DNA of 64,000 bases. Source: Protaetiibacter sp. SSC-01. GTDB lineage: Bacteria; Actinomycetota; Actinomycetes; Actinomycetales; Microbacteriaceae. The stretch lies in assembly GCF_014483895.1 (NCBI RefSeq), contig NZ_CP059987.1, positions 2,170,001-2,234,000 on the forward strand, written 5' to 3'. Each line of letters opens with the position of its first letter. The first letter of the stretch is position 1. A model generated the notes under the pieces. It was not told where the DNA came from. It saw nothing but the letters and a program-made list of their open reading frames with translations, and made no database searches. The position numbers and the translations under genes were made by a program. This document shows positions 35,627 to 50,572 of the stretch, in pieces.

Positions 35627-35653
35627 GCGCCCGGCCCGCCTCCCGCGGGCGCT

Positions 35654-36556
35654 TTACGCGCCCGCGAACCCCGCGATGCGCTCGACGGCCGTCGGCGCGT
35701 GCGGCAGGTTCATGACGTCGATCACGAGCAGGTCGACGCCGATCGCCGCGTAGGCCGCGAGGCGATCGCGCAGCGCCCCCGGGTCGACGCCGCCGAGGGC
35801 GTCGTCGCCGCCCTCGGGCTCCACGCGGATGCGCGTCGAGAGCTCCAGCTCGGAGGCGGGGCGGCCGGTGGCGCGCCTCCGCTCGGCGATGCGCTCGAGC
35901 ACGGCCGCGGTCTCGACGGGGTCGAGGTCGGCGCCGAGCCAGCCGTCGCCGAGCGCGACGACGCGGTCGAGGGCCGCATCCGAGTTGCCGCCGATGAGCA
36001 CGGGCGGGCCGCCCGGCCGGGCGGGCTGCGCGGGCAGGCCCATGTTGTCGACCCGCCAGAAGCGGCCGTCGAAACGCACGGCGTCGCTCGAGCGCCAGAG
36101 CTCGCGCATGAGGCGGATGGCCTCGTCGGTGCGCGGCCCGCGCTCGCTCCGCGGCACGCCGAGCGCCGCGAACTCCTCGGCCATCCAGCCGATCCCGGCG
36201 CCGAGCAGGATGCGGCCGTCCGAGAGCGCGTCGAGGGTCGCGAGCTCCTGGGCGAGCACGACCGGGTGGCGGTACGGCACGACCAGCACGTTCGTGCCGA
36301 TCCGCACGCGCTCCGTGACGCCCGCGACGAGCCCCATCGTCGCGATCGGCTCGAACCACGCCCGACCCGTGCGGAACGCGATCGCGCCGCGATCCTCGGA
36401 GTAGGGGTAGCCGCCGGGCGGGGCGCCGGGCTGCAGGATGCGGTCGGTCGTCCAGACGCTGTCGGCGCCGGAGGCCTCCGCGGCGCGTGCGGTGTCGAGC
36501 ACGGCCGCGCGCGACGCGACGGCGCCCTCGACGGGGAGGACGAATCCGAGCTTCAC
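35654..36556 (-). CDS. LLM class (F420- or flavin-dependent) oxidoreductase
   Basis: A 300-residue luciferase-like TIM barrel: LGFVLPVEGAVASRAAVLDT, SGADSVWTTDRI, RIGTNVLVVPYRHPVVLAQE, LGAGIGWMAEEFAALGVP and VLIGGNSDAALDR, all typical of actinobacterial F420-dependent LLM enzymes. The choice between F420 and FMN cannot be settled from sequence by eye. GTG 36556 has AAGGAG six bases upstream and overlaps the stop of the MFS gene (GTGA). It is the last gene of the sixteen-gene catabolic run. Confidence 0.88.
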   Translation of the reverse strand: MKLGFVLPVEGAVASRAAVLDTARAAEASGADSVWTTDRILQPGAPPGGYPYSEDRGAIAFRTGRAWFEPIATMGLVAGVTERVRIGTNVLVVPYRHPVVLAQELATLDALSDGRILLGAGIGWMAEEFAALGVPRSERGPRTDEAIRLMRELWRSSDAVRFDGRFWRVDNMGLPAQPARPGGPPVLIGGNSDAALDRVVALGDGWLGADLDPVETAAVLERIAERRRATGRPASELELSTRIRVEPEGGDDALGGVDPGALRDRLAAYAAIGVDLLVIDVMNLPHAPTAVERIAGFAGA

Positions 36557-37728
36557 GTGAGCTCCTTCCTGCCGAGGCCGGCCACCGCGGCGACGCTCGA
36601 GAGGCCGCCGACGGCGACGAGGCCCGCGACGAACCCGGGCCACGCGCCGAGGTCGAAGACGAGGCCGAGCGCCCAGCCGAGCACGGCGGCGCCCGCGTAG
36701 TAGGCGATCGTGTAGAGGGCGGACGGCAGGGCGCTGCCGCGCCCGAGCTCGGCGACCCAGCCCGCGGCGACGGCGTGCAGCGCGAAGAAGCCGGCCGTCA
36801 CGATCACGAGGCCGAGCACGATCGTCGGCACCATCTCGGGCAGCGTCACGAGCGCGCCGATCATCTGCGCGGCGAGCCCCGCCGCGACGAGGCGGTGCCG
36901 CCCGATCCGCGCGACGATGCGGCCCGAGCGCGCGGCGGTGAACGAGCCGACGAGGTAGACGACGAACACGGCCGTCACGGTGATGTCGGGCAGCCCGAAC
37001 GGCTCGTGCAGTAGGCGGAATCCGATGAAGTTGTAGATCGCGACGAACGCCCCCATCTGAAGGAACGCGAGCGCGCACAGCGCGAGCACCCGAGGGTCGC
37101 GCAGGGCACGGCGCGCCGCGCCGGGGGCGTCGGGCACCTCGACGACGCGCGGCGTGAGCACGAGGAAGGCCGCCGCCGCGATCGCCGAGAGCACCGAGAC
37201 CGCGACGAGCGCCATCCGCCAGTCGCCGAACGCCCCGACGACCCCGGCCACGAGGCGGCCGCTCAGGCCGCCGATCGCGGTGCCGCTCACGTACCAGCCT
37301 GCCGCGGCGGCGGCCCGCGTGCGGTCGAGCACGTCGCCCAGGTGCGTCACGGCGAGCGCGGGGATGCCGGCGAGCACGGCCCCCTGCACGAAGCGCACGA
37401 GCAGGAGGGAGACGATGCCGTCGGTCGCCGCGACGAGGGGGCTCAGCAGGATCGTCGCGATGACGGCGATGCGCAGGAGGGTGCCGCGCCGCACGCGGCG
37501 GGCCACGATCGACCACGGCACGACCGCGAGCGCGAGGCCGAGCGCGCCCGCCGACTGGACGAGCGCGGCCGACGACGCCGTGAGGGCGAACTCGCGCGCG
37601 ATCGCGGGCAGGAGCGCCTGCACGCCGTAGAGCTCGGCGAACGCGACGAGGCCCGCCGCCCCGAATGCCACGACGGTCGGCGCGAAGGACGCGCCGCCGG
37701 CGGGTGCGGATGCGGATGCGGGTCTCAC
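36553..37728 (-). CDS. MFS transporter (YnfM/arabinose-efflux-like)
   Basis: A 391-residue MFS protein with 12 hydrophobic segments, beginning AFAELYGVQALLPAIAREFA, a hallmark of the YnfM/AraJ group. The loop after segment two is VARRVRRGTLL and a long cytoplasmic loop occurs near residue 195. The GTG start at 37728 overlaps the stop of the dehydrogenase gene, and its own stop overlaps the LLM gene start, so it is translationally coupled on both sides. It may export or import an intermediate of the pathway. Confidence 0.85.
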   Translation of the reverse strand: MRPASASAPAGGASFAPTVVAFGAAGLVAFAELYGVQALLPAIAREFALTASSAALVQSAGALGLALAVVPWSIVARRVRRGTLLRIAVIATILLSPLVAATDGIVSLLLVRFVQGAVLAGIPALAVTHLGDVLDRTRAAAAAGWYVSGTAIGGLSGRLVAGVVGAFGDWRMALVAVSVLSAIAAAAFLVLTPRVVEVPDAPGAARRALRDPRVLALCALAFLQMGAFVAIYNFIGFRLLHEPFGLPDITVTAVFVVYLVGSFTAARSGRIVARIGRHRLVAAGLAAQMIGALVTLPEMVPTIVLGLVIVTAGFFALHAVAAGWVAELGRGSALPSALYTIAYYAGAAVLGWALGLVFDLGAWPGFVAGLVAVGGLSSVAAVAGLGRKELT

Positions 37729-38585
37729 CGCGCGAGCCACCGGGCGATCTCCGTGTGGTCGGCTCCCGGCTCGAGCTCCTCGAGCGCGCGCCGCCAGCTC
37801 GCGAGAGTCGCCGACGCCACGGGGCTCTCGACGCCCGTCTCCTCGAGCAGGCCGGTCGCGATGCGCGCGTCCTTGACCATGAGGGCGAGCGCGAAGCCGG
37901 AGTCGAAGGTGCCCGGCAGGATGTAGCGCGGCCACTTGAGCTCGCTCGATCCGCTGCGGCCGCTCGAGCCGTTCACGACCTCGAGCAGCACGGCCGGCTC
38001 GACGCCGAAGCGCTCCCCCGCGAGCACCGCCTCGCTCGTGAGCAGCAGATGCGACGCCGAGAGCAGGTTGTTGAGGGCCTTGACGGCGTGCCCCGCGCCG
38101 ACGGGTCCCACCCGCACGACGCGGCCGAACACCTCGAGCACGCCCGCGACGCGGTCGAGCAGCGCGTCGGGCCCCGCCGCCATGACGGTGAGGGTGCCGT
38201 TCTCGGCGCCCAGGACGCCGCCCGAGACGGGGGCGTCGACGAGACCGATGCCGGATGCCGCGAGCTCCTCCGCGAGCGCACGCGTGCGCGCGGGGTCGGA
38301 GGATCCTGCGTCGACGACCACGGCATCCACGGCGAGCGCCTCGCGCATCGCGGGGTCGCGCAGCACGCCCTCGACGGCGTCCGAGTCGGGCAGCAGCAGC
38401 ACGACGACCTCGGCGCCCGCGACCGCCTCGACGGCCGACGCGGAGGCCCGGCCGCCCGCTGCTGCGAGGCGCTCGCGCGCCGGGGCCACGGGGTCGGCGC
38501 CGTGCACGTGATGCCCCGCCGCGACGAGCCGCGCGGCGAGCGCGCCGCCCATCCGTCCGAGGCCGACGACCGCGACGCGCGTCAC
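37725..38585 (-). CDS. NAD(P)-dependent beta-hydroxyacid dehydrogenase (HIBADH family)
   Basis: A 286-residue enzyme. It has the Rossmann motif VGLGRMGGALAARL at residues 7-20, the substrate-binding DAPVSGGVLGAENGTLTVM, the catalytic-lysine segment GAGHAVKALNNLL, and KDARIATGL at the expected C-terminal position. Family members act on 3-hydroxyisobutyrate, tartronate semialdehyde, 2-hydroxy-3-oxopropionate and related acids. It is coupled by 4-nt overlaps to a cyclase and a MFS gene, so the substrate is probably a ring-opened acid. Confidence 0.88.
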   Translation of the reverse strand: MTRVAVVGLGRMGGALAARLVAAGHHVHGADPVAPARERLAAAGGRASASAVEAVAGAEVVVLLLPDSDAVEGVLRDPAMREALAVDAVVVDAGSSDPARTRALAEELAASGIGLVDAPVSGGVLGAENGTLTVMAAGPDALLDRVAGVLEVFGRVVRVGPVGAGHAVKALNNLLSASHLLLTSEAVLAGERFGVEPAVLLEVVNGSSGRSGSSELKWPRYILPGTFDSGFALALMVKDARIATGLLEETGVESPVASATLASWRRALEELEPGADHTEIARWLAR

Positions 38586-39565
38586 TTGAACGCCAGCGCG
38601 TTCGCGGGCGATCCCGTGCCGCCGCGCTTGTTGAGCGGTGCGGACGCGAGCAGGCCCTCGTAGACGCCGTCGACGGCCGAGTCGGCTGCGAGCGCGCGCA
38701 GGTCCCACATCTCGCCGATCCCGATGCCGAGGAGCGCCGCGAGGCGGTAGTGCAGGAAGCCCTCGGAGTCGTCGCGCTGCATGGGCATCGCCTCGACCGC
38801 GGGGCAGTCGGAGGCGACGGCGACGACGCCCGAGTCCCACAGCCACTCGGCCATCTCCTCGGCGCGGTCGAGGCCCGGAGCCGGGAAGAAGTGCTCGAGG
38901 TCGTGGTCGGTCGTCGAGAAGTCCGCGCCCCGCGCGAGGCGCAGTTTCGTCTGCTCGTCGCTCGCGAGGTACCAGTCGATCCAGCCGACGTGGACGAGGA
39001 GGAACGTGCCCGGCGTGAGGGCGACGCCCTGCGCGTCGAGGATGTCCTTCATCTCGGCGACCGTGATGGCGCGCGTCGTGCCCGCGTCGATCGGCTCGCC
39101 CCGCTCGGCGAAATAGCGCTCCGCGTCGACGAGCACGAAGCGGCCCGCGAGGCCTTTGCGCGCCCACGCGTCGATGCCGAAGCGAGGCGGGTCGGCCGTG
39201 AGGTCCGCGGTCGTCCAGCCGTTGTAGGAGCCGTAGCGCGGATGCCGCACGTGCGCGAGCGCGTCCCACTGGCTCGAGGCCTGGGGGTAGAAGCAGTCGT
39301 AGCGGTCGTCGGGCCCGGAGGGGCCGTCGATGATCGTGTGCTCGAGCCGGCCGCGGCCGAGGATCGGCGGGCTCGGCTCGTCGAGCTCCCAGTTGAGCGA
39401 GAACACGGCGCCGCGGCGCACGAGGCGCGCGGCCTGGGCCGTGCGCTCGGGCGTGAGGAGGTTCATGGCGCCGATCTCGTCGTCGTCGCCCCACACACCC
39501 CACGCGGAGCGCGGCGGGTGCTCGGGGGCGATCGGCAGATCGCGGTAGGCGGGGATCTCGGTCAT
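38582..39565 (-). CDS. Cyclase family protein (paralogue of 43800-44783)
   Basis: A 327-residue protein of the cyclase/kynurenine-formamidase-like superfamily. The metal-site region reads YPQASSQWDALAHVRH, where histidine and aspartate replace the HTGTHxDxxxH of classical formamidases, and WDLRAL lies near the C-terminus. Family members hydrolyse formamides or lactones. It shares length and many blocks (WGVxGxDDEIG, HYRLxxxLG) with the second cyclase. ATG 39565 overlaps the VOC gene stop. Confidence 0.85.
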   Translation of the reverse strand: MTEIPAYRDLPIAPEHPPRSAWGVWGDDDEIGAMNLLTPERTAQAARLVRRGAVFSLNWELDEPSPPILGRGRLEHTIIDGPSGPDDRYDCFYPQASSQWDALAHVRHPRYGSYNGWTTADLTADPPRFGIDAWARKGLAGRFVLVDAERYFAERGEPIDAGTTRAITVAEMKDILDAQGVALTPGTFLLVHVGWIDWYLASDEQTKLRLARGADFSTTDHDLEHFFPAPGLDRAEEMAEWLWDSGVVAVASDCPAVEAMPMQRDDSEGFLHYRLAALLGIGIGEMWDLRALAADSAVDGVYEGLLASAPLNKRGGTGSPANALAFK

Positions 39566-40080
39566 GATTCTCCTTCCAGGGCGAGCACGCTCGGACGGCC
39601 CGTGCGCGGGTCCACCGGGGCGGGGCTGCCGTCGTCGAGCACGATGGGGCCGGGCAGCGCCGACACGAGCTCGAGCCGCGTCCCGCTCCAGGGCTCGGCT
39701 GCGGCGAAGAACAGCAGGCGCCGGCCCTCGGCATCCGTGTTCTGCGCCTCGACGCGCACCCCCGCTGCCGTCACGCGCTCGTACTCGGCATCGAGGTCGC
39801 GGATGCCGGTGAAGGCCAGGTGGTGCACGCCCGCGTGGCGCGCGGCGTGCGTCCCCTCCCCGGTCGCCTCGAGCAGCTCGATGCGGGGACCCGGGCCGCG
39901 GGTGACGGCGAAGCGTGCGTCGTGGCGGTGCGGGCAGTCGCTCGAGTCGTCCTCGTAGCGGTCGGTGCGGTAGCGGCCCACGGGGCTGAACTCGACGTCG
40001 AGCGCACGCGTGTAGCGCGCCATGGCCTCCTCGAGGTCGAGCACGAGGACGCCGATGTGATCGACGACGGGCAGCGCCAC
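39562..40080 (-). CDS. VOC family protein (first copy)
   Basis: A 172-residue vicinal-oxygen-chelate protein with two beta-alpha-beta-beta-beta modules. Probable metal ligands are His in VDHIGVLV (residue about 8), His in GVHHLAF (about 88) and Glu in TRLELVS (about 138). The tail GPIVLDDGSPAPVDPRTGRPS is also found in the VOC protein at 46681-47196, so these two are close paralogues. VOC proteins include dioxygenases, epimerases, glyoxalases and ring-opening enzymes. The start is GTG 40080. Confidence 0.85.
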   Translation of the reverse strand: MALPVVDHIGVLVLDLEEAMARYTRALDVEFSPVGRYRTDRYEDDSSDCPHRHDARFAVTRGPGPRIELLEATGEGTHAARHAGVHHLAFTGIRDLDAEYERVTAAGVRVEAQNTDAEGRRLLFFAAAEPWSGTRLELVSALPGPIVLDDGSPAPVDPRTGRPSVLALEGES

Positions 40081-40083
40081 CGC

Positions 40084-41094
40084 CTACTCCTGGCTGAGCC
40101 GGCGGCCGATGCTGCTGAAGGCCACGGCGGCGATGAGCAGGATGCCCTGGAACAGGAACTGCACGAACGAGGGCACGCCCACGAGTGCGAGGCCGTTGAA
40201 CCCGACCGCGACCGTCACGACGCCGACGAGGGTTCCCACGACGTGGAACTGGCCCTCGCGCAGCACGGTGGAGCCGAGGAACGCGGCGGCGAACGACGAC
40301 ATCGTGTAGTTGTCGCCACCCGTCGGCTGGCCGCTGCCGATCGACGACGCGAGCAGCACGCCCGTGACGGCCGCGAAGAGGGCGGCGATCACGAACGCCG
40401 TCGTCGTCACGCGACCCGTGCGCACGCCCGTGAGGCGCGCGGCCTCGGTGTTGCCGCCCGTCGCGCGGAGGTTGCGGCCGAAGTCGGTCTTGTTGAGCAC
40501 GACCCACAGGATGAGCAACGCGCCCGCCATGTAGAAGACGGGCTTGGGCACGCCCATCCAGTTGCCGATCGCGATCTGCAGGAACTCGGGGAACTGCGTC
40601 GAGACGGGCTGCGGGGTGCCGCCCGAGATGAAGTAGTTGACGCCGATGAGGGCGCTGCCCGTTCCGAGCGTGCCGACGAGCGCGTTGACGCGCAGCACCG
40701 TCACGAGGAAGCCGTTCACGAGGCCCACGACGACGCCCGCGAGGAGCGCGATCATGATCGCGAGGGGGATCGGCACACCCTGCAGCATGAGGATCGTGAC
40801 GATGATGCCCGAGAGGCTCACCATGTAGCCGATCGAGAGGTCGAACTGCCCGCTCGCGAGCACGAGCGTGAGGCCGCCCGCGACGATCGCGGAGAGCGCC
40901 GACTGGTTGAGCACCTGCAGCAGGTTCGGGATCGTCAGGAAGTACGGCGACGCGATGCTGAAGACGATGAGCAGCACGCCGAGCGCGATGAGCGCGCCGT
41001 AGCGTCCGAGGATCGCGGCCGTGCGGCGTCCGATCCGCGACGCGAGGCTGCGCGTGTGCTCGGCGGAGGCCTGGGGGCTCTCGATGAGGGTCAC
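40084..41094 (-). CDS. Sugar ABC transporter permease (RbsC type)
   Basis: A 336-residue membrane protein with about ten hydrophobic segments of the BPD_transp_2 family; the signature LASGQFDLSIGYMVSLSG and the EAA-like loop GRNLRATGGNTEAARLTGV are those of ribose/galactose-type permeases. GTG 41094 overlaps the ATPase stop, and the next gene (VOC) begins 3 bp after its end. It forms an importer with the two genes upstream. Confidence 0.92.
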   Translation of the reverse strand: MTLIESPQASAEHTRSLASRIGRRTAAILGRYGALIALGVLLIVFSIASPYFLTIPNLLQVLNQSALSAIVAGGLTLVLASGQFDLSIGYMVSLSGIIVTILMLQGVPIPLAIMIALLAGVVVGLVNGFLVTVLRVNALVGTLGTGSALIGVNYFISGGTPQPVSTQFPEFLQIAIGNWMGVPKPVFYMAGALLILWVVLNKTDFGRNLRATGGNTEAARLTGVRTGRVTTTAFVIAALFAAVTGVLLASSIGSGQPTGGDNYTMSSFAAAFLGSTVLREGQFHVVGTLVGVVTVAVGFNGLALVGVPSFVQFLFQGILLIAAVAFSSIGRRLSQE

Positions 41095-42626
41095 GACGAC
41101 GTCCTTTCCTGGGTGTAGATCGCTTCGAGCATCTGGGCCTCGGTCACGCCGGGCCCCTCGATCTCGCCGAGAGTGCGGCCCTCGACCATCACGACGACGC
41201 GGTGGCACACGGCGAGCTCCTCGAGCTCGCTGCACACGACGACGACGGCGCCGCCCTGGGCGGCGAACTCCTCCGCGGTGGCCCAGATCTGGCGGCGGGC
41301 GCCGATGTCGACGCCGCGGGTCGGCTCGTCGAGCAGCATGATCCCGATGTCGCGGGCGAGCCAGCGCGCGAACACGACCTTCTGCTGGTTGCCCCCCGAG
41401 AGGGTGCGCACGGGCGAGTGGACGGATGCGGTCTTCACACCCAGCCGCTCGACCATCGATCGCACGAGGGCGCGGGCGCGGCCGTCGGCGAGGAAGGGCA
41501 GCCACCTCACGGCGCGGGCGCTGCGCCATCCGCCCATCTTGGTGTTGAAGAGCACGCTCTCGTCCATGACGAGGGCCTGAGAGCGCCGCTCCTCGGGCAC
41601 GAGCGCGACGCCGCGGGTGATCGCGTCGGAGACCGAGCGCGGACGGTAGGGGCGGCCGCCGAGGGTCATCTCGCCCGCGGCGGGGCGCTCGGCTCCGAAG
41701 ATCAGGCGGAGAGTCTCGGTGCGGCCGGCGCCGACGACGCCCGCGAGACCGAGGATCTCGCCGCGACGGAGGTCGAACGACACGTCGTGCACGCGGGGGC
41801 CGCGCGCGAGGCCGCGCACCGAGAGCACGACGTCGGCGTCGCTCTTCACGGGCGCATCCGGGGTCTCGACGGTCTCGGCGACGCTGCCGGCGCCCGTGAT
41901 GCCGAGCACGAGGTCCTCGCGGGTGTAGCCGCCCCGCTCGTAGGAGGCGACCGTCTGGCCGTCCTTGAACACGGTGACGGCGTCGCACAGCTCCTCGATC
42001 TCGTCGAGGCGGTGGCTCACGTAGGCGACGGCGACGCCCGCGGCCGAGAGCTCGCGGACGATGCCGAAGAGACGCTCGCACTCGACGTCCGAGAGCGAGG
42101 CGGTGGGCTCGTCCATGGAGACGAAGCGGGCCTCACCGACGAGGGCGCGGCCGATGGCGACGAGGCCGCGCTCGGCGATCGAGAGCTCGCGCACGGGCTT
42201 GTCGAGGGAGAAGCGCAGATCGAGCCGCTCGGCGACCTCGCGCGCGAGCGCCTTGCGACGGCGCGCGTCACCGAGGCCGAGGGGCGTCGTGGGCCGCACG
42301 CCGATCGTCATGTTGTCGATCGCGGAGAACTCGGGCACGAGCGCGAGCTCCTGGTAGATGAAGGCGAACCCGAGGTCCGCCGCGCGGCGCGGGGAGCCGA
42401 CGTCGGTCGGCTCTCCCGCCACGAGCAGCTCGCCGGAGTCGGGGGTCACGACCCCGGCGAGCACGTTCAGGAACGTGGACTTGCCTGCGCCGTTCGCGCC
42501 GACGAGCCCGTGCACCTGACCCGGCAGGATGTCGAGACCGACGCCGCGCAGCGCACGCACCGCACCGAAGGACTTGGTCAGTCCACGGGCGCTGATGAGC
42601 GGGGATGCGGGCGCGGCGTCGGTCAT
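41091..42626 (-). CDS. Sugar ABC transporter ATP-binding protein (RbsA/MglA type)
   Basis: A 511-residue double ATPase. Domain 1 has Walker A GANGAGKST (residues about 42-50), the signature LSIAERG and Walker B RFVSMDEPTASL. Domain 2 has the degenerate Walker A GVVGAGRTE with the signature LSGGNQQK and Walker B IMLLDEPTRGVD. This is the classic ribose-type organisation with one active and one variant site. It is followed in frame overlap by the permease and preceded by the binding protein. Confidence 0.95.
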   Translation of the reverse strand: MTDAAPASPLISARGLTKSFGAVRALRGVGLDILPGQVHGLVGANGAGKSTFLNVLAGVVTPDSGELLVAGEPTDVGSPRRAADLGFAFIYQELALVPEFSAIDNMTIGVRPTTPLGLGDARRRKALAREVAERLDLRFSLDKPVRELSIAERGLVAIGRALVGEARFVSMDEPTASLSDVECERLFGIVRELSAAGVAVAYVSHRLDEIEELCDAVTVFKDGQTVASYERGGYTREDLVLGITGAGSVAETVETPDAPVKSDADVVLSVRGLARGPRVHDVSFDLRRGEILGLAGVVGAGRTETLRLIFGAERPAAGEMTLGGRPYRPRSVSDAITRGVALVPEERRSQALVMDESVLFNTKMGGWRSARAVRWLPFLADGRARALVRSMVERLGVKTASVHSPVRTLSGGNQQKVVFARWLARDIGIMLLDEPTRGVDIGARRQIWATAEEFAAQGGAVVVVCSELEELAVCHRVVVMVEGRTLGEIEGPGVTEAQMLEAIYTQERTSS

Positions 42627-42657
42627 CGATGTCTCCTGTCGGATGGTGAGGGGTGCG

Positions 42658-43650
42658 TCAGGCCGCGTACTCGGGGTGCTCGGCCAGGAACTCCTCGAGG
42701 TTGTCGGGCGTCACGATGATCGTGTTCGCGTCGACCTCCTGCGGGTCCTCGCCGGCAAGGTGGGCCTTGATGAGCTCGACGAGCTGGCCACCCTCGCCCG
42801 CGGCGTCGATGTAGAGCACCGCGGAGATGTCACCGCTGCGGAGCGGCTCGACGACCTGGTCCGAGAAGTCCCACGTGTAGATCGGGACGTCGCGGTCGGC
42901 CTGCTGGAGCGCGGCGTAGGCGCCCATGGCCGGGTCGGAGAAGCACGCCCAGATGACGAGGTCGGAGCCCTCGCTCTCGGGGTTCGCCTGCAGCCACGCG
43001 GCGGTGGCGTTCTGCGCGTCGGTCACCTGACCGGGCACGACGACCTCGTGCTTCTCGATCTTGTCGCTCAGACCCGCGGCCTCGAGCTTCTCGTCGAGGT
43101 CGGCCTCGCGCGCGCGGCAGGGAGCGCCGGGCTGGAGGGTCATGGCGAGGATCTTGAGCTTCGGGAGGTCCTTGATCTGCTCGATCATGTACTCGTTGAC
43201 CGGCGAGGCGGCGGTCGTCGAGATGGCGCCGGCGACGCCGTCGGCGAGCGAGCCGGCGAGGTAGAAGACGGGGATCTGCGCGGCGGCGGCGCCCGTCATG
43301 CACTGGGCCATCTGGTTGGTGTCGAACACCGAGATGACGATCGCGTCGACCTGGCGGGTCACGTACTGCGTGCAGATGGTGTTGGCCTGAGCCGCGTCGC
43401 CCTTCGGGTCCTGGCTCAGCACCTCCCAGCCCTCGGCCTCCATGGCGGTCTTGGCACCGTCGGTCTCGGACTTCGCCGAGAGGGTGGTCGTGTCGTAGCT
43501 CACGATGCCGACGGTGTACGTGTCGTCGCCGCCGTCCTTCGAGCCGTTGCTGCTGCCGTCGATGGAACAGCCGGCGAGCATGACGCCGGCGAGCGCGAGC
43601 GCGCCCAGCGCGAGGCCGCGGCGGCCGCGCTTTCCGAATTCTGTGATCAC
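42658..43650 (-). CDS. Sugar ABC transporter substrate-binding lipoprotein
   Basis: A 330-residue protein with a lipobox LAGC (Cys at about residue 28) after a charged N-terminus, then a Peripla_BP_4-type binding fold: TYTVGIVSYDTTTLSA, ICTQYVTRQVDAIVISVFDT, and DFSDQVVEPLRSGDISAVLY. The Rbs/Xyl family is consistent with the partners. GTG 43650 has AAGGAGG at a good distance. A 149-bp gap before it could hold its own promoter, but I see no convincing hexamers. The ligand is unknown. Confidence 0.9.
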   Translation of the reverse strand: MITEFGKRGRRGLALGALALAGVMLAGCSIDGSSNGSKDGGDDTYTVGIVSYDTTTLSAKSETDGAKTAMEAEGWEVLSQDPKGDAAQANTICTQYVTRQVDAIVISVFDTNQMAQCMTGAAAAQIPVFYLAGSLADGVAGAISTTAASPVNEYMIEQIKDLPKLKILAMTLQPGAPCRAREADLDEKLEAAGLSDKIEKHEVVVPGQVTDAQNATAAWLQANPESEGSDLVIWACFSDPAMGAYAALQQADRDVPIYTWDFSDQVVEPLRSGDISAVLYIDAAGEGGQLVELIKAHLAGEDPQEVDANTIIVTPDNLEEFLAEHPEYAA

Positions 43651-43799
43651 GTCTTCCTCCTTGAAGGTGGTGTCCTCGACACCCGGGTACGGCGGACGGT
43701 GCTCCGCGCAACGCCCAGCATCCCGATGGCCCTCGCGGTCCACATGCACGCGCCCGCCACCTAGTTGCGTGCGCCTGCCAGGCGATGCCGCGACAGCGG

Positions 43800-44783
43800 T
43801 CACATGAGGGCGAGGGCGTTCGCGGGCGAGCCGATACCGCCCGGGATCCGCAGCGGCGCTGCCGTGAGCAGGCCCTCCCAGCGGTCCTCGCGCGCGCAGT
43901 GCTCGGCGAGCGCGTCGAGGTCCCAGAGCTCGCCCACCGCCATCCCGAGCATGGGGATGAGGCGGTAGTGCAGCCAGCCGTCGACGCTGTCGCGCTCGAA
44001 CGGCATGGCCTCGAGCGCGGGGTTGTCTGCGACGATCGCCGCGGCCTCGACGTCCCACAGCCACGCAGCGAGGTCCTCGCTCGCCGCGAGACCTGGCGTC
44101 GGCGGCATGAGCTCGCGGTCGCGCGAGAGGTCGTCGCTCGGCACCATCGCGGCGATGCGGGCGCGCTCCTCGCGCGAGGCCGCGCGGTAGCCCGCGAGCC
44201 ATCCGGTTCGCACGAGGACCGCGGAGCCGGGCGCCAGCTCGACGCCCTGGGCGACCGCGGTCGCCACGAGGTCGTCGACGCCGATCAGCTCTCGCGCGTC
44301 CCAGCGGATCGGACGACCGTAGGAGGCGCGGTGCCGCGCGACGTCGAGCAGCACGAAGCGCGCTGCGATGCCCCGCGCGCCCCAGCGGTCGATGCCGAGA
44401 CGGGATCCGCGGCCGACGCCAACGGCACCCGCGGGCACGCCGTTGTAGAAGCCGAGCTCCGGATGCCGCACGTGCGCGAGCGAGTCCCACTGGCTCGAGG
44501 CCTGGGGGTGCAGGTCGTCGATGCGGTCGTCGAGCGACGTCGGCTCCTGCACCACGGTGTGCGTGAAGCCGCGGCGCCCGAAGAGCGGCGGGTCGGGCTC
44601 GTCGAGCGGCAGCGAGAGCGGGAACGCGACACCCTCGCGCACGAGGGATGCGGCGGCCACAGCGCGGTCGGGCGTCGCCTCGTTGAGCGTGCCGATCTCG
44701 TCGTCGGCACCGTACACGCCCCAGGAGGTGCCCCGCGGCGCGTCCTCGCGCACGGCGAGGTCGCGGTAGCGCGGCCGCGTCAC
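43800..44783 (-). CDS. Cyclase family protein (second copy)
   Basis: A 327-residue paralogue of the cyclase at 38582-39565, with the same length, YGADDEIGTLN, the site HPQASSQWDSLAHVRHPELG, and GWLHYRLIPMLGMAVGELWDL. It is overlapped at its 5' end by a VOC gene (GTGA), as the other cyclase is. The two VOC-cyclase couples therefore look like a duplicated module whose members now serve different steps or substrates. Confidence 0.85.
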   Translation of the reverse strand: MTRPRYRDLAVREDAPRGTSWGVYGADDEIGTLNEATPDRAVAAASLVREGVAFPLSLPLDEPDPPLFGRRGFTHTVVQEPTSLDDRIDDLHPQASSQWDSLAHVRHPELGFYNGVPAGAVGVGRGSRLGIDRWGARGIAARFVLLDVARHRASYGRPIRWDARELIGVDDLVATAVAQGVELAPGSAVLVRTGWLAGYRAASREERARIAAMVPSDDLSRDRELMPPTPGLAASEDLAAWLWDVEAAAIVADNPALEAMPFERDSVDGWLHYRLIPMLGMAVGELWDLDALAEHCAREDRWEGLLTAAPLRIPGGIGSPANALALM

Positions 44784-45295
44784 AACTCCACCCGGATGCG
44801 CTCGTGGGGTGGACGGCGACGGGCGGGCGCCTCGATCGCCTCGACGTACGATCCCACCACGTCTCGCACATCGAAGAAGGCGTATGCACCGTCGCCGTCC
44901 ACACCATGTCCTCCCCCGCTGAGCACCTCGCCGATGCCGAGTCCGGCGAAGTGGGCACGGGCCTCCGCGAGCGACGGCACGTAGTAGCCCACGTGGTGCA
45001 GGCCCGGTCCGCGCTCGTCGAGGAACGTCGTGTAGATGCTCGGCCCGGTAACCGGCTGGATGATCTCCAGGGCAGGGCCGTAGGAGGGCATCGCCACGAC
45101 GGAGGTGTAGTCGGCGTCCTCGCCGAGATAGCGGCGCACGGGGACGTAGGCGCCGTCGTAGGTCCAGACGTTCCACTCGGCGACGCCGAGGACACGCGCC
45201 ATGCGCTCGACGGCCGGGCGCAGCTCGGGGACGACGTACGCGATCTGGTCGGGTGCGCGGCCGACGAGCGGCAGCCGCTCGGCGGCGCCCGTCAC
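44780..45295 (-). CDS. VOC family protein (second copy)
   Basis: A 171-residue VOC protein. The first ligand position is Gln (PDQIAYVVPEL) instead of His, followed by GLHHVGYYV (His) and GSYVEAIE (Glu), so its metal site resembles that of methylmalonyl-CoA epimerase-type members more than dioxygenases. It lacks the DDGSP tail of the other two VOC proteins in the locus. It is coupled by overlap to the carboxymuconolactone-type gene before it and the cyclase after it. Confidence 0.8.
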   Translation of the reverse strand: MTGAAERLPLVGRAPDQIAYVVPELRPAVERMARVLGVAEWNVWTYDGAYVPVRRYLGEDADYTSVVAMPSYGPALEIIQPVTGPSIYTTFLDERGPGLHHVGYYVPSLAEARAHFAGLGIGEVLSGGGHGVDGDGAYAFFDVRDVVGSYVEAIEAPARRRPPHERIRVEL

Positions 45296-45690
45296 GCCTC
45301 GGCGTCCATGTCCGTGAAGACCTGGCGCGCGACCCGGAACGCGTCGAGTGCGGCCGGCACACCGCAGTAGATGGCGGCCTGCAGGAGCACCTCGCGGATC
45401 TCCTCGCGGCTCACGCCGTTGTTGACGGCGCCGCGCACGTGGATCGCGAGCTCGTGCGGGCGGTTGAGAGCCGTCATCATCGCGAGGTTGAGCATGCTGC
45501 GAGTTCTCCGCGGCAGCTCGTCACGGGTCCACACGCGACCCCAGCAGTACTCCGTGACGAGCTCCTGCAGGTCGCGCGTGAAGTCGTCCATCGCGGCGAG
45601 CGAGCGATCCACGTACGCGTCCCCGAGCACGGCACGACGCACCGCGAGGCCGGCGTCGAATTGCTGCTGGGAGGTCATTTCGCTGGGCAT
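45292..45690 (-). CDS. Carboxymuconolactone decarboxylase family protein
   Basis: A 132-residue all-helical protein of the AhpD-like/PcaC family. Core blocks are LAMMTALNRPHELAIHVRGA and GVSREEIREVLLQAAIYCGV; no CxxC is present, so it is a decarboxylase-like rather than AhpD-like member. In the protocatechuate pathway PcaC opens gamma-carboxymuconolactone, and here the context suggests a comparable lactone step. ATG 45690 has a GGGGAG upstream; ATG 45678 is an alternative. Confidence 0.85.
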   Translation of the reverse strand: MPSEMTSQQQFDAGLAVRRAVLGDAYVDRSLAAMDDFTRDLQELVTEYCWGRVWTRDELPRRTRSMLNLAMMTALNRPHELAIHVRGAVNNGVSREEIREVLLQAAIYCGVPAALDAFRVARQVFTDMDAEA

Positions 45691-45757
45691 GCGGCCATGC
45701 TCCCCATCCGCGCCGAACGGCGCTTGACCACGCGCGTCAGGCTCCTGCGTGTGCAGG

Positions 45758-46684
45758 TCAGCTCGGATGCAGGAGCGCCGCCGCGAGGAACAGGACGGGC
45801 ACGGCCACCACGGTGGTGAGAAGCACGACGTCACGCGCGTGGACGACGCCTTTCCCGAAGCGCTCGGCGTACGTGTACACGACCTGCCCGGTCGGCAGTG
45901 CGGCGATCACCACGGTCGCGAAGACGATAGCCGGGTCGAGGCCGAGCAGGGGCCCCGCGACGACCCATGCCACGAGCGGCATGATGATCGCCTTGATGAC
46001 GGTCGCCACGACGATCGGCAGCCGGTCGCTCCCGGGCTCGAGCACCCGACGGCCGCGCAGCGACACCCCGAAGGCGAGCAGCACGACGGGGATCGCAGCG
46101 TCCGCGAGCAAGTCGAGCGGCACCTCCACGACATCCGGGAGCCGGATGCCGGAGAGGCTGATGGCCACGCCCGTCGCCGACGCCGCGACGACGGGGTTGC
46201 GCAGGGGCTGGGTCACGATGCGCCCGAGCGAGAGCGGCCGACCCGAGGTGCCGTCGAGCACCGCCATGAGCACCGGCGTGAACGCGATGGGCTGCAGCAC
46301 GAGCACGGCCGCGATCGCCTGCGGGTCGTCGAGCACGAACATCGCGACCGGCAGCCCCATGTTGTTGCTGTTGAGGAACACGACGCTCGCCGCGCCGATC
46401 GCGGTCTCGCCCGCGCCGCGCCGGAAGAACGCCAGCGACAGCACGAGGTACAGTACGGCCGCCGCGGCCGCGCTCACGGCCGCCACGAGCATGTAGTCCG
46501 ACAGGATGATGCGCAGGTCGGCATGCGCGAGGATCCGGAACAGGATCGCGGGCGTCGCGACGTAGAACGCGACGCGGGTGAGGGCGTTCGCCGTCTCCTC
46601 GCCGAACGCCCCGAGCCGGGCGCACACGTAGCCGATGAGGATGATCGCGCCGATAACGGCGACGCCCTCGACGACGCCGATCAC
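45758..46684 (-). CDS. AEC family transporter
   Basis: A 308-residue membrane protein with ten hydrophobic segments in two halves, opening GAIILIGYVCARLGAF and containing NSNNMGLPVAMFVL, the conserved Asn-rich crossover of auxin-efflux-carrier-like proteins, and ALPTGQVVYTYAERFG near the C-terminus. Such carriers move carboxylates such as malate. It is coupled to the VOC gene upstream by 4 nt (start GTG 46684) and is probably the uptake or release route for an acid of this pathway. Confidence 0.88.
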   Translation of the reverse strand: MIGVVEGVAVIGAIILIGYVCARLGAFGEETANALTRVAFYVATPAILFRILAHADLRIILSDYMLVAAVSAAAAAVLYLVLSLAFFRRGAGETAIGAASVVFLNSNNMGLPVAMFVLDDPQAIAAVLVLQPIAFTPVLMAVLDGTSGRPLSLGRIVTQPLRNPVVAASATGVAISLSGIRLPDVVEVPLDLLADAAIPVVLLAFGVSLRGRRVLEPGSDRLPIVVATVIKAIIMPLVAWVVAGPLLGLDPAIVFATVVIAALPTGQVVYTYAERFGKGVVHARDVVLLTTVVAVPVLFLAAALLHPS

Positions 46685-47196
46685 GACGCCGGCGGCCCCC
46701 AGAGGCTCGCCTTGCCCGTGACGGGGTCGCGCCACAGCGGCGACCCGTCGTCGGCCACGAGCGGGCCGGGGAGCGGCGAGATGAACTCCATGCGGATGCC
46801 GTCGAGGAAGTTCTTGTCGGTGAACATCAGCAAGATGCGGCCCTGCTCGTCGAACGAGCAGCCGTCGATCGCGACCCCCCTGCTCGCGAGCAGCTCGCGG
46901 TGTGCCTCGGGGTCGGCGACGTTCTGGATGCCGAGGTGGTGGATGCCGAGCTGGTCCGGGCCGTGGGTGCCCGATCCGGTGACCTCCATGAGCTCGATAC
47001 GCGGCGGGCCCTCGAGCGAGAACGAGATGCGGGCGTCGTGGAAGTGCGGCTCGGGGTCGCTGTGGTCGGCGTAGCGCTCGGTGCGGTAGCGCCCGATCGG
47101 GCTGAACGTGTAGCCGGTCACCGTCGACCAGCGCTCGATCGCCTCCTCGAGGTCGGGCACGAGGATGCCGATGTGCTCGATGAGGGGTGCGGTCAT
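46681..47196 (-). CDS. VOC family protein (third copy)
   Basis: A 171-residue paralogue of the VOC at 39562-40080: it shares FSPIGRYRTERY, the metal ligands IEHIGILV (His), GIHHLGI (His) and RMEFIS (Glu), and the C-terminal GPLVADDGSPLWRDPVTG. The His-His-Glu triad is intact, so an active metal enzyme is likely. ATG 47196 overlaps the stop of the serine hydrolase gene. Confidence 0.85.
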   Translation of the reverse strand: MTAPLIEHIGILVPDLEEAIERWSTVTGYTFSPIGRYRTERYADHSDPEPHFHDARISFSLEGPPRIELMEVTGSGTHGPDQLGIHHLGIQNVADPEAHRELLASRGVAIDGCSFDEQGRILLMFTDKNFLDGIRMEFISPLPGPLVADDGSPLWRDPVTGKASLWGPPAS

Positions 47197-48338
47197 CGCT
47201 GACTCCTGGGTTCGGTGCGCGGGGCGAGCCCCCGCATGCAGTGGCGGATGGTGTCGACGAGGGCGAGCCCCGCGGGGCTCGCCCCCGCCATGCGGGGGAA
47301 GACGTCGGTCGTCCAGGCGACCGCGAGGCCCGAGTCGGGGTCGGCGAAGACGAACGAGCCGCCCGCCGCCTCGTGCCCGTAGGAGCGGCCGCCGTAGAGC
47401 GGTAGCTGAGCGAACGGCAGCTGCATGCCCGACGAGAACGCGGTCTCGACGCCGAGCACGGCGTCGGTGCCGCGCGACAGCACCTCCTCGAACGAGCGAC
47501 GGGCGGCATCCGACAGCAGCGGGCCGTCGAGCGTCGCGGCGAGGAGACGAGCGAGGTCGCGTGCGCCCGCGACCCCGCTCGAGGAGGGGAAGCCCGCCCG
47601 GAGGAAGCCCGGGTCGTTGTAGATGTCCATCTCGCGCGAGAGCGCTGCGGTGGTGCCCGCGGGGATGCCGCTCGCGGCCACGAAGGCGGCGCGCGTCTCC
47701 GAGATGGCGGGGCTCAGGTAGCGCACCTTCGCGACGCGCGGGAACGCGGCATCCGGCAGCCCGAGCCACACGTCGACGCCGAGCGGCCCCGCGACGTGCT
47801 CCGCGAGGTACTCCCCCACGGTCGTGCCCACGCGGCGCCGGAAGACGCCCTCGAGCAGCGGGGCGAACGTGAAGGCGTGGTAGCCGTGCCGCGTGTTCGG
47901 CTCCCAGTAGGGCTCCTGCTGCGCGACGGCGTCCTCGGCGGCGCCGGCCATGAGCTCGTCGTAGCCCAGCCGGCGGTCGAGCGAGGCGATGCCGGAGCGG
48001 TGGGCGAGCACCATGCGGGGCGTGATCGCGGCGGTCGAGGCGCGGCGGAACTCGGGCCAGTCGCTCGCGAGGGGCTCGTCGAGGTCGAGGAGCCCGGCGT
48101 CGGCGGCGTGGGCCGCGACGATCGCGGTGACGGCCTTCGAGACCGAGAAGACCGGCTGCACCGTGTCGGCCGCATAGGTGCCGCCCCACAGGTCGACGAC
48201 GAGCTCGCCGTCGCGCACGACCGCGAGCGCGGCGCCGCCCTCGCCCTGTGCCGAGACGGCGCGCGCGAACACCTCGCGGAGCTCCTCGAAGGGGGCGGCC
48301 GCGGTGCCGCCCACCGGGATCTGCTCGGGACCGGACAT
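47193..48338 (-). CDS. Serine hydrolase (beta-lactamase/EstB-type esterase)
   Basis: A 381-residue protein of the class C beta-lactamase-like family. The nucleophile motif SVSK (SxxK) is at about residue 70, YHAFTF supplies the tyrosine motif, and a C-terminal SYGHEAAGGSFVFADPDSGLA takes the KTG-type position. No signal peptide is visible, so a cytoplasmic esterase is likely rather than a beta-lactamase or DD-peptidase. Start and stop overlap the neighbours. It may release an ester- or lactone-linked group. Confidence 0.85.
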   Translation of the reverse strand: MSGPEQIPVGGTAAAPFEELREVFARAVSAQGEGGAALAVVRDGELVVDLWGGTYAADTVQPVFSVSKAVTAIVAAHAADAGLLDLDEPLASDWPEFRRASTAAITPRMVLAHRSGIASLDRRLGYDELMAGAAEDAVAQQEPYWEPNTRHGYHAFTFAPLLEGVFRRRVGTTVGEYLAEHVAGPLGVDVWLGLPDAAFPRVAKVRYLSPAISETRAAFVAASGIPAGTTAALSREMDIYNDPGFLRAGFPSSSGVAGARDLARLLAATLDGPLLSDAARRSFEEVLSRGTDAVLGVETAFSSGMQLPFAQLPLYGGRSYGHEAAGGSFVFADPDSGLAVAWTTDVFPRMAGASPAGLALVDTIRHCMRGLAPRTEPRSQR

Positions 48339-49351
48339 CAGCGGTAGATCGGCGCCAGGTGCTCGCGGAAGTACTCGAGGCCCTGCGCGAGCTCGACGAC
48401 CGGGTCGGGCGAGTGGTCGATCTCCTCGGTCGCCCAGCCGCTCCATCCGTGCTCGCGCAGGATGTGCATCCACGTCTCCCAGTCGACGATGCCCGAGCCG
48501 AGGATGCGGAACGACTGCATCGTCTGCTCGTGGCGCTGCTTCTGGTCACCGCGCTGGAGGTGGCCGGACTTCGGGCCGATGCAGTCCTTCCAGTGCATCG
48601 TCGGGATGCGGTCGATGTGGTCGCGCAGCACCGCCACGGCGTCGCCGCCGTCGAGGGTGATGTGGCCCGCGTCGGGGCACAGCGCGATCGAGGCGGGGTC
48701 GGTGAGCTCCAGCACCGTCGCGATGTCCTCGTTGCGCGAGCAGATCGAGTAGGCGTCGGTGTGGATCGCGATCTTGACGCCGTGCTCGATCGTGATCGCG
48801 CCCAGGCGGTTGAGGTGCTCGGCGAAGCGCTCGTGCACCTCGCGGTCGACCGGACGGGTGAAGTCCTCCTCGGTCGCCGTGTCGTCGGGGCTCTCGTTGC
48901 CGAACCGGCTGCGCGGGAGGTTGCCCGACACGATCGTGCCTGCACCCATCTCGGCGAGGAACTCGGCGTGACGGCGGAACGCGTCGTCGGCGACGGGGAT
49001 GAGCTCGGGGTCGGCGATCGCGTTGCCGATGAGCTGGCGCCCGTGGGCGTAGCTTGAGCTCAGCTCGAGTCCGCGCTCGTCGAGGGCGGCGCGGAAGCCG
49101 TCGACGCTGCCGTAGACCTTGAGCGCGGCCTCCCAGCCGGCCGGGTCGGGGGCGAGCTCGACGCCCTCGAGCCCCGCGTCGCGGGCGCCGTCGAGCATCC
49201 CGTCGAAGTAGCGACGCGGGTCGGCCCAGAAGGCCTCAGTCCAGCGCGGGTGGTTGAGGCCCGGCTCGAGCCCCCACCAGCCCGACTCGTAGAAGCCGAT
49301 GATGTTGGTGCTGAAGCGGATGTTGGGCTCGCCCTCGTGCGCGTGGCTCAT
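48338..49351 (-). CDS. Sugar phosphate isomerase/epimerase (xylose isomerase-like TIM barrel)
   Basis: A 337-residue AP-endonuclease-2-type barrel with metal-ligand patterns spaced along it: GVELAPDPAGW, SSSYAHGR, KIAIHTDAYSI, LCPDAGHITLDGGD, PTMHWKDC and GWATEEID. The family includes 2-keto-myo-inositol dehydratase, tagatose epimerases and C-glycoside-cleaving subunits. Coupled directly to the Gfo/Idh/MocA dehydrogenase upstream (4-nt overlap), a pairing frequent in inositol and oxidised-sugar catabolism. Confidence 0.88.
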   Translation of the reverse strand: MSHAHEGEPNIRFSTNIIGFYESGWWGLEPGLNHPRWTEAFWADPRRYFDGMLDGARDAGLEGVELAPDPAGWEAALKVYGSVDGFRAALDERGLELSSSYAHGRQLIGNAIADPELIPVADDAFRRHAEFLAEMGAGTIVSGNLPRSRFGNESPDDTATEEDFTRPVDREVHERFAEHLNRLGAITIEHGVKIAIHTDAYSICSRNEDIATVLELTDPASIALCPDAGHITLDGGDAVAVLRDHIDRIPTMHWKDCIGPKSGHLQRGDQKQRHEQTMQSFRILGSGIVDWETWMHILREHGWSGWATEEIDHSPDPVVELAQGLEYFREHLAPIYR

Positions 49352-50478
49352 GCGTGCGCCCCCGCCTCGCCGACCGTCACCCAGCTGTCCGACTGGGCGG
49401 CGGCGTAGACGGCCGCGACGACGTCCTCGACGTGCGCCGCGCGGGCGAAGTCGGGCGCGGTGGGCGTGCCGTCGACGATCGCGCGCACGAAGTGCTGCAT
49501 CTGGATCGCCGAGACATCGGGGTAGCCCGTGCCGAGGCCGGCGAGGCGCCACCAGCCGTCGGGGTGCTGGTCGTTCGTGTGGATGGTGCGGAAGCCCCGG
49601 TGGTCGGCGGGCTCGTCGACGTAGGCGACACGGAAGACCTCGCGGTCGTTCCAGTCGAACTGCACGGCGGCACGGCTCGCGTCGAACTCGAAGTAGACGC
49701 GGTTCTTCCGGCCGACGCCGTACTGGTTGACGCTGAAGGTGCCGATCGCGCCGTTCGCGAACTCGGCGAGCCACACGGCCGCGTCGTCGATGAGGTCGCC
49801 CTCGACACGCTCGGACTCGGGGCGCCATCCGTCGCCCGAGTAGCTGCGGGCGCGCGCGGCGACGCGCACGATGTCGCCGAACAGGTGCTCGGCGAGGTCG
49901 ATGATGTGCGAGCCGATGTCGCCGACCGTGCCGGACCCGCCCGTGGCCTTGGTGGCGCGCCAGCGGTTCGGGTCGGCCCAGAAGCCGACCTCCTGCGTGT
50001 AGCTCGCCCGGAACTGCAGGGGCGTGCCGAGCTTGCCCTCGTCGAGCAGCTTCTTGGCGAACGACACCGCGGGCGTGTGGCGGTAGTTGTACCCGACCTG
50101 CGTCACGACTCCGGCCTTCTCGGCTGCGGCGACGATGGCGCGCGCCTCGTCCGGGTCGTTCGTGATGGGCTTCTCGCAGAACACGTGCTTGCCCGCCTCG
50201 ATCGCCGCGAGGGCGATCTCGGCGTGGAACTGCGGCGGGGTGCAGATGTCGACGATGTCGATGTCGTCGCGGGCGACGGCGGCACGCCAGTCGGTGCCCG
50301 ACTCGTTCCAGCCGTACGCGGAGGCCGCCGTGGCCGCGACCTCGGCGTTCGCGTCGACGAGCACCTGCTTGACGATCGTCGCGCCGAGATCGCTCGCGAT
50401 GGGCGCGAGCGCGTAGGCGAGGCTGTGCGCGCGACCCATGAATCCGGCTCCGACGAGCGCGACCTTCAGTTCCTTCAC
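49348..50478 (-). CDS. Gfo/Idh/MocA family NAD(P)-dependent dehydrogenase
   Basis: A 376-residue oxidoreductase with the Rossmann motif VALVGAGFMGRAH (residues 6-18), CEKPIT carrying the catalytic-site lysine (about 100), and TVGDIGSHIIDLAEHL with the conserved Asp and His (about 190). Substrates are usually sugars or cyclitols oxidised at one carbon. GTG 50478 has GGAAGGA eight bases upstream. It is the first gene of the sixteen-gene run; a 94-bp gap separates it from the AraC gene. Confidence 0.92.
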   Translation of the reverse strand: MKELKVALVGAGFMGRAHSLAYALAPIASDLGATIVKQVLVDANAEVAATAASAYGWNESGTDWRAAVARDDIDIVDICTPPQFHAEIALAAIEAGKHVFCEKPITNDPDEARAIVAAAEKAGVVTQVGYNYRHTPAVSFAKKLLDEGKLGTPLQFRASYTQEVGFWADPNRWRATKATGGSGTVGDIGSHIIDLAEHLFGDIVRVAARARSYSGDGWRPESERVEGDLIDDAAVWLAEFANGAIGTFSVNQYGVGRKNRVYFEFDASRAAVQFDWNDREVFRVAYVDEPADHRGFRTIHTNDQHPDGWWRLAGLGTGYPDVSAIQMQHFVRAIVDGTPTAPDFARAAHVEDVVAAVYAAAQSDSWVTVGEAGAHA

Positions 50479-50572
50479 CGGTGTCCTTCCGTGTGGTGTG
50501 GTTCCCAGAGTGCGCGAGCCGCGGCCGGGCGTCTTGCCTACGCCCGACTCGCGATTGCTCGAGACCGCCGTG

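Follow-up and report, generated by a model that had tools for sequence, protein, structure and literature searches.

A putative locally controlled operon for cyclic polyol or glycoside catabolism in Protaetiibacter sp. SSC-01, with a core and an optional cassette

Introduction

Which compound would a bacterium degrade with enzymes whose types are all known, and whose combination appears to fit none of the known pathways with which it was compared? This question is raised by a run of sixteen genes on the minus strand at positions 35654-50478 of the window, the stretch of 64,000 nucleotides analysed here, which is part of the 2.96-Mb single-contig genome (G000) of Protaetiibacter sp. SSC-01 (Microbacteriaceae; contig NZ_CP059987.1, positions 2,170,001 to 2,234,000 of the forward strand). 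An earlier examination of the letters alone, hereafter the sequence-only reading, had taken the run for a catabolic operon outside described pathways, in which oxidation of a sugar is followed by opening of a ring or lactone. We refer to the genes as A to P in the order of transcription.

The answer that we prefer, and to which we give an even chance, is that these genes belong to a locally controlled catabolic operon for a cyclic polyol or glycoside, composed of a core (the gene of an AraC-family regulator, A to E and O), an optional cassette (F to N) and the gene of an LLM-class oxidoreductase (P). The gene content, the gene order, two palindromes that occur nowhere else in the genome and the division into core and cassette are the observed part of this explanation.

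Extent and division of the gene run

A purpose-written, codon-usage-based gene caller returned sixteen minus-strand genes with the same end points as those of the sequence-only reading. Ten of the 15 junctions overlap (nine by 4 bp, one by 1 bp), one is a 3-bp gap, and the remaining four gaps measure 31, 53, 79 and 149 bp, in agreement with the earlier count of eleven overlapping or touching junctions and a longest gap of 149 bp. The start of F is probably about 15 bp upstream of the called one, as judged by eye in three genomes. Upstream of A the same-strand run continues with an AraC gene (50573-51433) and then a LacI gene (51580 to about 52563). The earlier observation was right but understated, and the run is probably better read as a seventeen-gene operon that begins with the AraC gene. 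Two other genomes of the genus share this gene order, one with the whole block of 16 genes (G004) and one with 15 (G005), in which N is reduced to a remnant, apparently its first codons joined to its last. Given this conservation, the run is more than a product of chance.

Twenty proteins encoded between 35654 and 54711 were scanned against Pfam and NCBIfam. The family labels given earlier were supported at the level of families, and most curated NCBIfam cut-offs were missed; those of PcaC for F and TIGR03619 for P were reached. No pathway tested gave a match, and to this extent the proposal of a catabolic operon outside described pathways is supported; a description of such a gene set was not found in the open-licence papers searched.

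The run is divided by a compact form of the locus in a further genome of the genus (G008), which reads T, S, LacI, AraC, A, B, C, D, E, O and then mfd (S and T are plus-strand genes described below). At this locus G008 lacks the nine genes F to N and also P. The run therefore consists of a core, A to E and O, and a cassette, F to N (37725-45678), and the idea that the sixteen genes form a single indivisible pathway has to be given up. Judged from the compared loci, F to N, which encode a carboxymuconolactone-decarboxylase-family protein (CMD), two VOC-cyclase pairs, an Rbs-type importer and a HIBADH-family protein, were gained or lost between E and O. Among the four genomes that have the operon, G008 diverges most (A is 86% identical, versus 90%).

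Besides the enzymes discussed below, the core encodes a beta-lactamase-fold serine esterase (C, 47193-48338), an AEC carrier (E, 45758-46684) and an MFS carrier (O, 36553-37671), the last of these present in G008. The cassette includes a sugar importer, made up of the Rbs-type solute-binding protein I (42658-43650), the Rbs/Ara-type ATPase J (41091-42626) and the permease K (40084-41094), and ends with the beta-hydroxyacid dehydrogenase N (37725-38585). All were recognised with both Pfam and NCBIfam models, except I, which was assigned by Pfam.

Five related genomes (G001, G002, G003, G006 and G007) have no orthologue of A, the best A-like match being at most 50% identical, with none at all in G006. 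In these genomes the 13-19 kb upstream of mfd gave no match to A to E, H, M or O at an E value of 1e-5. G001 keeps about 50 codons from the middle of P (L062:17820-17969). Together with the remnant of N in the gap between M and O of G005 (L015), this decayed piece of P shows loss of single genes in relatives. By eye, members of the genus seem to differ in what lies between mfd and the peptidyl-tRNA hydrolase gene, where other genes, partly importers, are found (L058-L062).

Rarity was counted in samples of genomes. H has matches at 1e-70 or better in seven of 398 genomes of the family, and at least 77% identity is reached in G000, G004 and G005 only. At the same threshold B is matched in two of 394 genomes of the class, its own and, partially, G465. 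D is matched at 1e-12 in two of 396 genomes of the order (its own and G952), and the D/L alignment at 1e-15 in three of 396 genomes of the phylum (its own, G479 and G1280).

Promoter, operators and other conserved elements

The regulator genes point to local control. LacI (51580-52563, minus strand; Pfam Peripla_BP_3) is 327 aa long when read by hand from an upstream start that includes the helix-turn-helix, and its orthologue in G004 has the same length. The AraC-family regulator (50573-51433, minus strand; Pfam HTH_18 and AraC_binding_2), the probable first gene of the operon, is also found in G004, G005 and G008, and a 46% relative lies near A in G465. Between the two genes lies a probable sigma70-like promoter, TTGACG-16-TAAACT (51506-51533, minus strand). 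It is the only promoter-like consensus match in 35400-53000, where 0.3 would be expected, which is weak evidence by itself; its TTGAC is kept in 4/4 genomes.

Two probable LacI operators accompany this promoter. One, TTACTCGTGTAA on the plus strand (51509-51520), overlaps the -10 hexamer by 3 bases, and the second, TTACACGAGTAA on the plus strand, lies at 51478-51489. Two possible half-sites, CGAGTAAC, follow at 51451-51471 on the minus strand. When ten whole genomes (G000-G008 and G465) were searched for the 12-mer palindrome TTACWCGWGTAA, G000, G004, G005 and G008 had exactly two sites each, all in the gap between LacI and AraC. No site occurs in the other six, that is, in G001, G002, G003, G006 and G007, which lack the operon, and in G465, which has relatives of A to C. 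The reversed palindrome, searched for as a control, matched nowhere in the ten genomes. As the palindrome is absent from G465, which does have relatives of A, B, C and AraC, this genome would be under other control. From their position, symmetry and co-occurrence, the palindromes are predicted to be bound by LacI, and a local LacI gene together with an operator pair that is unique in the genome speaks for common control at the start of the transcript.

Two further elements may add to this control. Upstream of A, a candidate AraC-type direct repeat, GCAA and GCAAGA 21 bp apart (50532-50558, minus strand), is invariant in 4/4 genomes and may be the AraC site. A strict pattern for such repeats matched nothing, its own site included, so it is the alignment of the AraC-A gaps that points to the repeat. 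A conserved 26-bp element (43743-43768, minus strand) lies in the 149-bp gap before the importer genes; 24 of its 26 positions are invariant in 3/3 genomes, and this conservation makes an internal control site possible. The part at 43743-43759 has four weaker copies with 3 mismatches each, at 3140, 29273, 53725 and 57162. With up to 3 mismatches allowed, the window thus holds five matches where 1.3 are expected.

These elements bear on the idea that two unrelated pathways share one transcript, the core (A to E and O) acting on one compound and the F-N cassette on another, which we regard as quite unlikely. Such an arrangement would suit the solitary core of G008, the conserved element that precedes the importer genes, and a cyclase in G007 that stands beside an Rbs-type importer with none of A to E close by. 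It would sit poorly with the membership of D (core) and L (cassette) in one VOC family and with the finding that the run holds no further operator copy, even with one mismatch. Moreover, a single contig pair of G465 brings A, B and C together with two cyclases and an importer.

The dehydrogenase and TIM-barrel pair

The first enzyme genes of the operon encode a Gfo/Idh/MocA dehydrogenase (A, 49348-50478) and an IolE-like TIM barrel of 337 aa (B, 48338-49351; AP_endonuc_2), for which we propose a role as beta-eliminase or dehydratase. Both were assigned by Pfam, NCBIfam and trees. The same kind of dehydrogenase and a TIM-barrel partner, together with LacI and a sugar ABC importer, are found in the levoglucosan pathway of Bacillus smithii and Paenarthrobacter (LgdA, LgdB1, LgdB2, LgdC), where, in the available excerpt of the source, LgdA oxidises, LgdB1 beta-eliminates and LgdB2 hydrates (PMC7676230). 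Levoglucosan dehydrogenase (NF052479) is indeed the best NCBIfam match of A, but A scores 343 bits against a cut-off of 650, while a Klebsiella plasmid control scores 749. A is 39% identical to the Klebsiella enzyme, whereas an identity of about 70% was used to group orthologues of LgdA according to an excerpt of PMC10066097. B is not placed in the branch formed by two short TIM barrels (271 and 274 aa) that we took to be LgdB1-like (about 275 aa). The run contains no LgdB1-type gene, and VOC proteins, cyclases, a CMD and an esterase are added to it. A levoglucosan operon of the LgdA-LgdB1-LgdC type is therefore very improbable, and we rejected it on the cut-off for A and on the clade.

In trees, A groups with its relatives from G004, G008, G465 and the plasmid of Rhodococcus erythropolis R138 (16 rows; support 99/99), plus one very long branch of unsure place, beside levoglucosan dehydrogenase. 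The TIM-barrel tree (17 rows) unites B, the R138 protein and members of three gene sets with a GMC protein in one clade (100/100), apart from the short and long types of Klebsiella; three of its rows are long branches whose placement is unsure. The three sets, from Rhizobium etli, Ketogulonicigenium vulgare and Martelella (L026, L068 and L069; 3 of 137 plasmid records inspected), share a conserved combination of LacI, TIM-barrel, ABC and GMC genes on alphaproteobacterial plasmids, and their GMC proteins received no NCBIfam assignment. Two of the three PDB matches of B are IolE.

A dehydrogenase followed by an IolE-like TIM barrel is also the order of classical myo-inositol catabolism (IolG, IolE, IolD, IolB, IolC, IolJ). 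A and B fall short of the IolG and IolE cut-offs (112 versus 355 and 107 versus 290 bits), and IolD, IolB, IolC and IolJ were not found among the 20 proteins of 35654-54711, the rest of the genome not having been searched for them. The R138 plasmid provides a link to this pathway. There, adjoining relatives of A (52%) and B (45%) are accompanied by a cyclase, a DeoC/LacD aldolase and an IolC that scores 345 bits against a cut-off of 300. Neither IolD nor IolB was seen in this 25 kb, for which the gene table is incomplete and the open reading frame (ORF) calls are crude.

Closer relatives of A, B and C occur together in G465. Identity is 69% for A and 54% for C, which adjoins B there too; for B it is 68% and 73-74% on two contig ends, whose pieces presumably belong to a single gene. 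The contig with A (L054) ends in the A/B genes and carries two cyclases (58% and 50% identical to M) that flank Rbs-type importer genes, as well as two PfkB kinases, an SIS protein, a 2-hydroxyacid dehydrogenase and the AraC relative. An HxlA-like protein encoded on the same contig scores below its cut-off (159 versus 200).

VOC proteins, cyclases and the CMD

Three VOC proteins are encoded in the run, D (46681-47196) in the core and G (44780-45295) and L (39562-40080), a paralogue of D, in the cassette. VOC enzymes have a known ligand pattern and short cyclases a known motif. In D the putative metal site is H8, E68, H87 and E137, residues that are kept in 7/7 rows of D and L. In an alignment of 14 VOC rows, G alone has lost H8 and E68, a Gloeothece protein alone lacks H87, and E137 is kept throughout; G is thus a different kind of VOC protein.

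Relatives of D occur in several settings with sugar enzymes. In G952 the gene lies beside an FGGY kinase, a TIM barrel, an aldolase and an HxlA-type 3-hexulose-6-phosphate synthase (207 versus a cut-off of 200). In G479 its neighbours on the same strand encode a zinc dehydrogenase, a sugar carrier and an SDR; a pyranose oxidase (548 versus a cut-off of 545 bits) follows in this cluster at a distance of about four genes, and a TIM barrel lies on the opposite strand. The Gloeothece relative (39% over 132 aa) has an annotated iolE in its vicinity, together with a GMC protein and another TIM barrel, and that of G1280 adjoins, on a 4-kb contig, genes of an importer with similarity to J and K.

The two hydrolases of the cyclase family (PF04199), H (43800-44783) and M (38582-39565), are paralogues of a long type. 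They score 47 and 51 bits in Pfam against a cut-off of 23, and no NCBIfam model matched them. Their putative metal residues (the first Gln, Asp, His, His and Glu) are kept in 20/20 rows; within the motif Gln-x-x-x-Gln-x-Asp, the first Gln is present in 20/20 rows and the second in 19/20. It is unlikely that the VOC and cyclase genes were duplicated recently within the locus, as closer relatives lie in other genomes: D is 56% identical to its relative in G952 and 53% to that in G479, versus 44-45.5% to L, and M is 58% identical to a cyclase of G465, versus 46-46.7% to H. An enzyme of the same family is proposed to open a cyclic dione in the phloroglucinol pathway (dihydrophloroglucinol cyclohydrolase), from which the operon differs in the long subtype of H and M and in that phloroglucinol reductase and the acetoacetate-lyase family were not recognised in the run. 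According to an excerpt of PMC10470551, a Mn-dependent hydrolase of this family opens a cyclic 1,3-dione by retro-Claisen hydrolysis.

The neighbours of related cyclases are mixed. For cyclases of G002, G140 and G236 and a second one of G005, the coverage consisted of ORF lists. Neighbours that resemble sugar or cyclitol genes, besides those of R138, are an Rbs-type importer, an aldolase and an FGGY-like protein (G007), a shikimate-dehydrogenase-like protein, an FGGY kinase and DUF2090 (G348), similar genes by eye with CoA-transferase- and MaoC-like genes in addition (G248), and Gfo, GMC, gluconolactonase and carbohydrate ABC genes (Aminobacter). In Sinorhizobium a CMD-family gene, a beta-keto-acid-cleavage-type protein and a fumarylacetoacetate-hydrolase-family gene are found, and in Corynebacterium an alcohol dehydrogenase. 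We also considered the neighbours of R138-like cyclases (four of 10 records found) as a means of fixing the function, and dropped this approach when three of the four had an AMP-ligase-type gene and one an alcohol dehydrogenase. Given such mixed neighbourhoods, the cyclase family alone does not decide between sugar and aromatic chemistry. The partners of A, B and D, as far as gene neighbourhoods can tell, argue for chemistry of a sugar-like kind.

F (45292-45678), the first gene of the cassette, encodes a PcaC-like CMD, by Pfam and NCBIfam, that scores 175 bits against the PcaC cut-off of 156, and the sequence-only reading had placed aromatic enzymes in the run. A branch of the beta-ketoadipate pathway that uses F is nevertheless scarcely credible. 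The whole genome holds a single, partial match to the intradiol dioxygenase family (PF00775, 38 bits) and no protocatechuate-dioxygenase pair; PcaB, PcaD and PcaHG were not recognised in the run, and neither PcaHG nor PcaB is listed beside any of five relatives of F inspected among 578 plasmid records. We rejected the pathway on the weak dioxygenase match, and with it the aromatic part of the earlier claim as beta-ketoadipate chemistry. Three of the five clusters do look like ring degradation (pyridine-type, trigonelline, and maleylacetate reductase with a P450), while the other two contain tripartite-carrier and central-metabolism-like genes. Ring degradation is thus common around relatives of F, which suggests some aromatic link of F, and an aromatic aglycone is possible from these contexts.

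Proposed pathway

From these observations we infer a sequence of steps that comprises control by LacI and AraC, the substrate and the order of the enzymes. LacI bound to the two promoter palindromes would block the transcript until a ligand derived from the substrate removes it, and AraC would then raise expression from A onwards. The substrate would be a cyclic polyol or glycoside, imported by E, by O and, where the cassette is present, by the Rbs-type importer. A would oxidise a ring hydroxyl to a ketone, and B would remove a substituent, water or an aglycone, by beta-elimination. A metal-dependent VOC enzyme (D or L) would shift the carbonyl through an enediol, and the cyclases H and M would open the resulting cyclic dione or lactone by hydrolysis. 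C may cleave an acyl group, F may decarboxylate a beta-keto acid and N may reduce an aldehyde. Of the earlier proposal, oxidation of a sugar type as the first step is upheld in outline and ring opening is plausible, while its aromatic half is without support.

Several findings weigh against this scheme. The compact operon of G008 has no cyclase, which places ring opening outside the core, and the cyclase of R138 shares no more than 29-32% identity with H and M. The Gln residues of the long cyclases stand at what we take to be the His metal-ligand positions of short cyclases. Cyclases also lie beside genes of the acyl-CoA or AMP-ligase type in Rhodococcus DK17, Cnuibacter, Tsukamurella, Blastomonas and Salinigranum, the last of these having a Gfo gene and a carbohydrate permease at greater distance. 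The relative of D in Rhodococcus opacus (31%) lies with a branched-chain-type ABC importer and no listed sugar enzyme, and a structure model of the VOC protein (pLDDT 47) is too poor for use.

A more specific and decidedly doubtful form of the scheme is a thiamine-free opening of cyclitol rings. A and B would produce a cyclic 1,2-dione, the VOC enzyme would convert it to a 1,3-dione, and a long-type cyclase would open this by retro-Claisen cleavage to a 2-deoxy-5-keto-aldonate, in place of IolD and IolB; the operon of the window would then be a relative that acts on a similar ring. On paper, the VOC-cyclase route from the inositol dione yields exactly the substrate of IolC. The R138 plasmid, where relatives of A, B and the cyclases accompany an IolC and no IolD or IolB was seen in the 25 kb, fits this route.

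Alternatively, the operon may oxidise a glycoside and release the aglycone by beta-elimination, the cassette then degrading the aglycone, which is possibly aromatic. We think this unlikely, albeit a serious candidate, and a glycosylated substrate is possible. Operons for the beta-elimination of O- and C-glycosides (of the AtOGE, DgpA and CarA types) follow the same logic of oxidation and then elimination by a TIM-barrel enzyme. The ring-degradation clusters around relatives of F agree with this alternative, as do the GMC oxidoreductases or pyranose oxidase found with relatives of B and D and the position of S, a second Gfo/Idh/MocA gene, next to LacI in the window, G004 and G008. Known pathways likewise proceed, in the parts of the sources available, from a Gfo-type or other dehydrogenase to a TIM-barrel eliminase, with a hydratase and a Gfo reductase (PMC10628242, PMC7676230), and AtOGE is described in the first of these as acting after oxidation of the glycoside. 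Less favourably, B does not group with the TIM barrels of Klebsiella and Rhodobacteraceae that were taken as LgdB1- and LgdB3-like, AtOGE is absent from its three PDB matches, the small CGE beta subunit was not recognised in the run, and S has no operator copy beside it. On D-apiose, nothing was found in the literature among the matches listed.

Other genes of the region

The last gene of the run, P (35654-36556, minus strand), which is not present at the G008 site, encodes an LLM-class oxidoreductase by Pfam and NCBIfam and passes the F420-dependent model TIGR03619 (217 versus 167 bits). A search of the genome for CofD (PF01933) gave no match at an E value of 0.001, whereas the control was positive in 10 of 14 genomes; use of F420 by P is thus doubtful, and P may use a flavin. 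On the other side of LacI, two plus-strand genes are of uncertain membership. S (52766-53821), assigned by Pfam and divergent, is a possible keto-sugar reductase, and T (53818-54711; Pfam), which lies beside S in G004 and G008 also, encodes a protein similar to quinone reductases and alcohol dehydrogenases.

Beyond T, positions 54776-61207 encode a Dak1-Dak2 kinase and a member of the triosephosphate isomerase family along with an SBP_bac_1-type importer and a 158-aa protein, a set that resembles those for tetritol or erythrulose catabolism. By eye, the compact locus of G008 has a Dak-like ORF of 579 aa and an ABC-permease-like ORF next to it. Directly after a tRNA-Leu gene, the segment 5554-14374 has partly lower GC content and weak coding scores and is possibly an integrated element.

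Significance

Sugar catabolism by oxidation and elimination, with a VOC-cyclase cassette and an apparent private repressor-operator pair, looks like a new combination. One transcript joins the Gfo/TIM-barrel pair, VOC proteins and long-type cyclases under this apparent private repressor, so that the substrate should be accessible through induction or through ligand screens of LacI or of the binding protein. Natural variants, the compact locus of G008 and that of G005 with its decayed N, have already split the genes into core and dispensable ones. If the VOC-cyclase step is true, it would give a function to the long-type cyclases and define a new route of ring opening.

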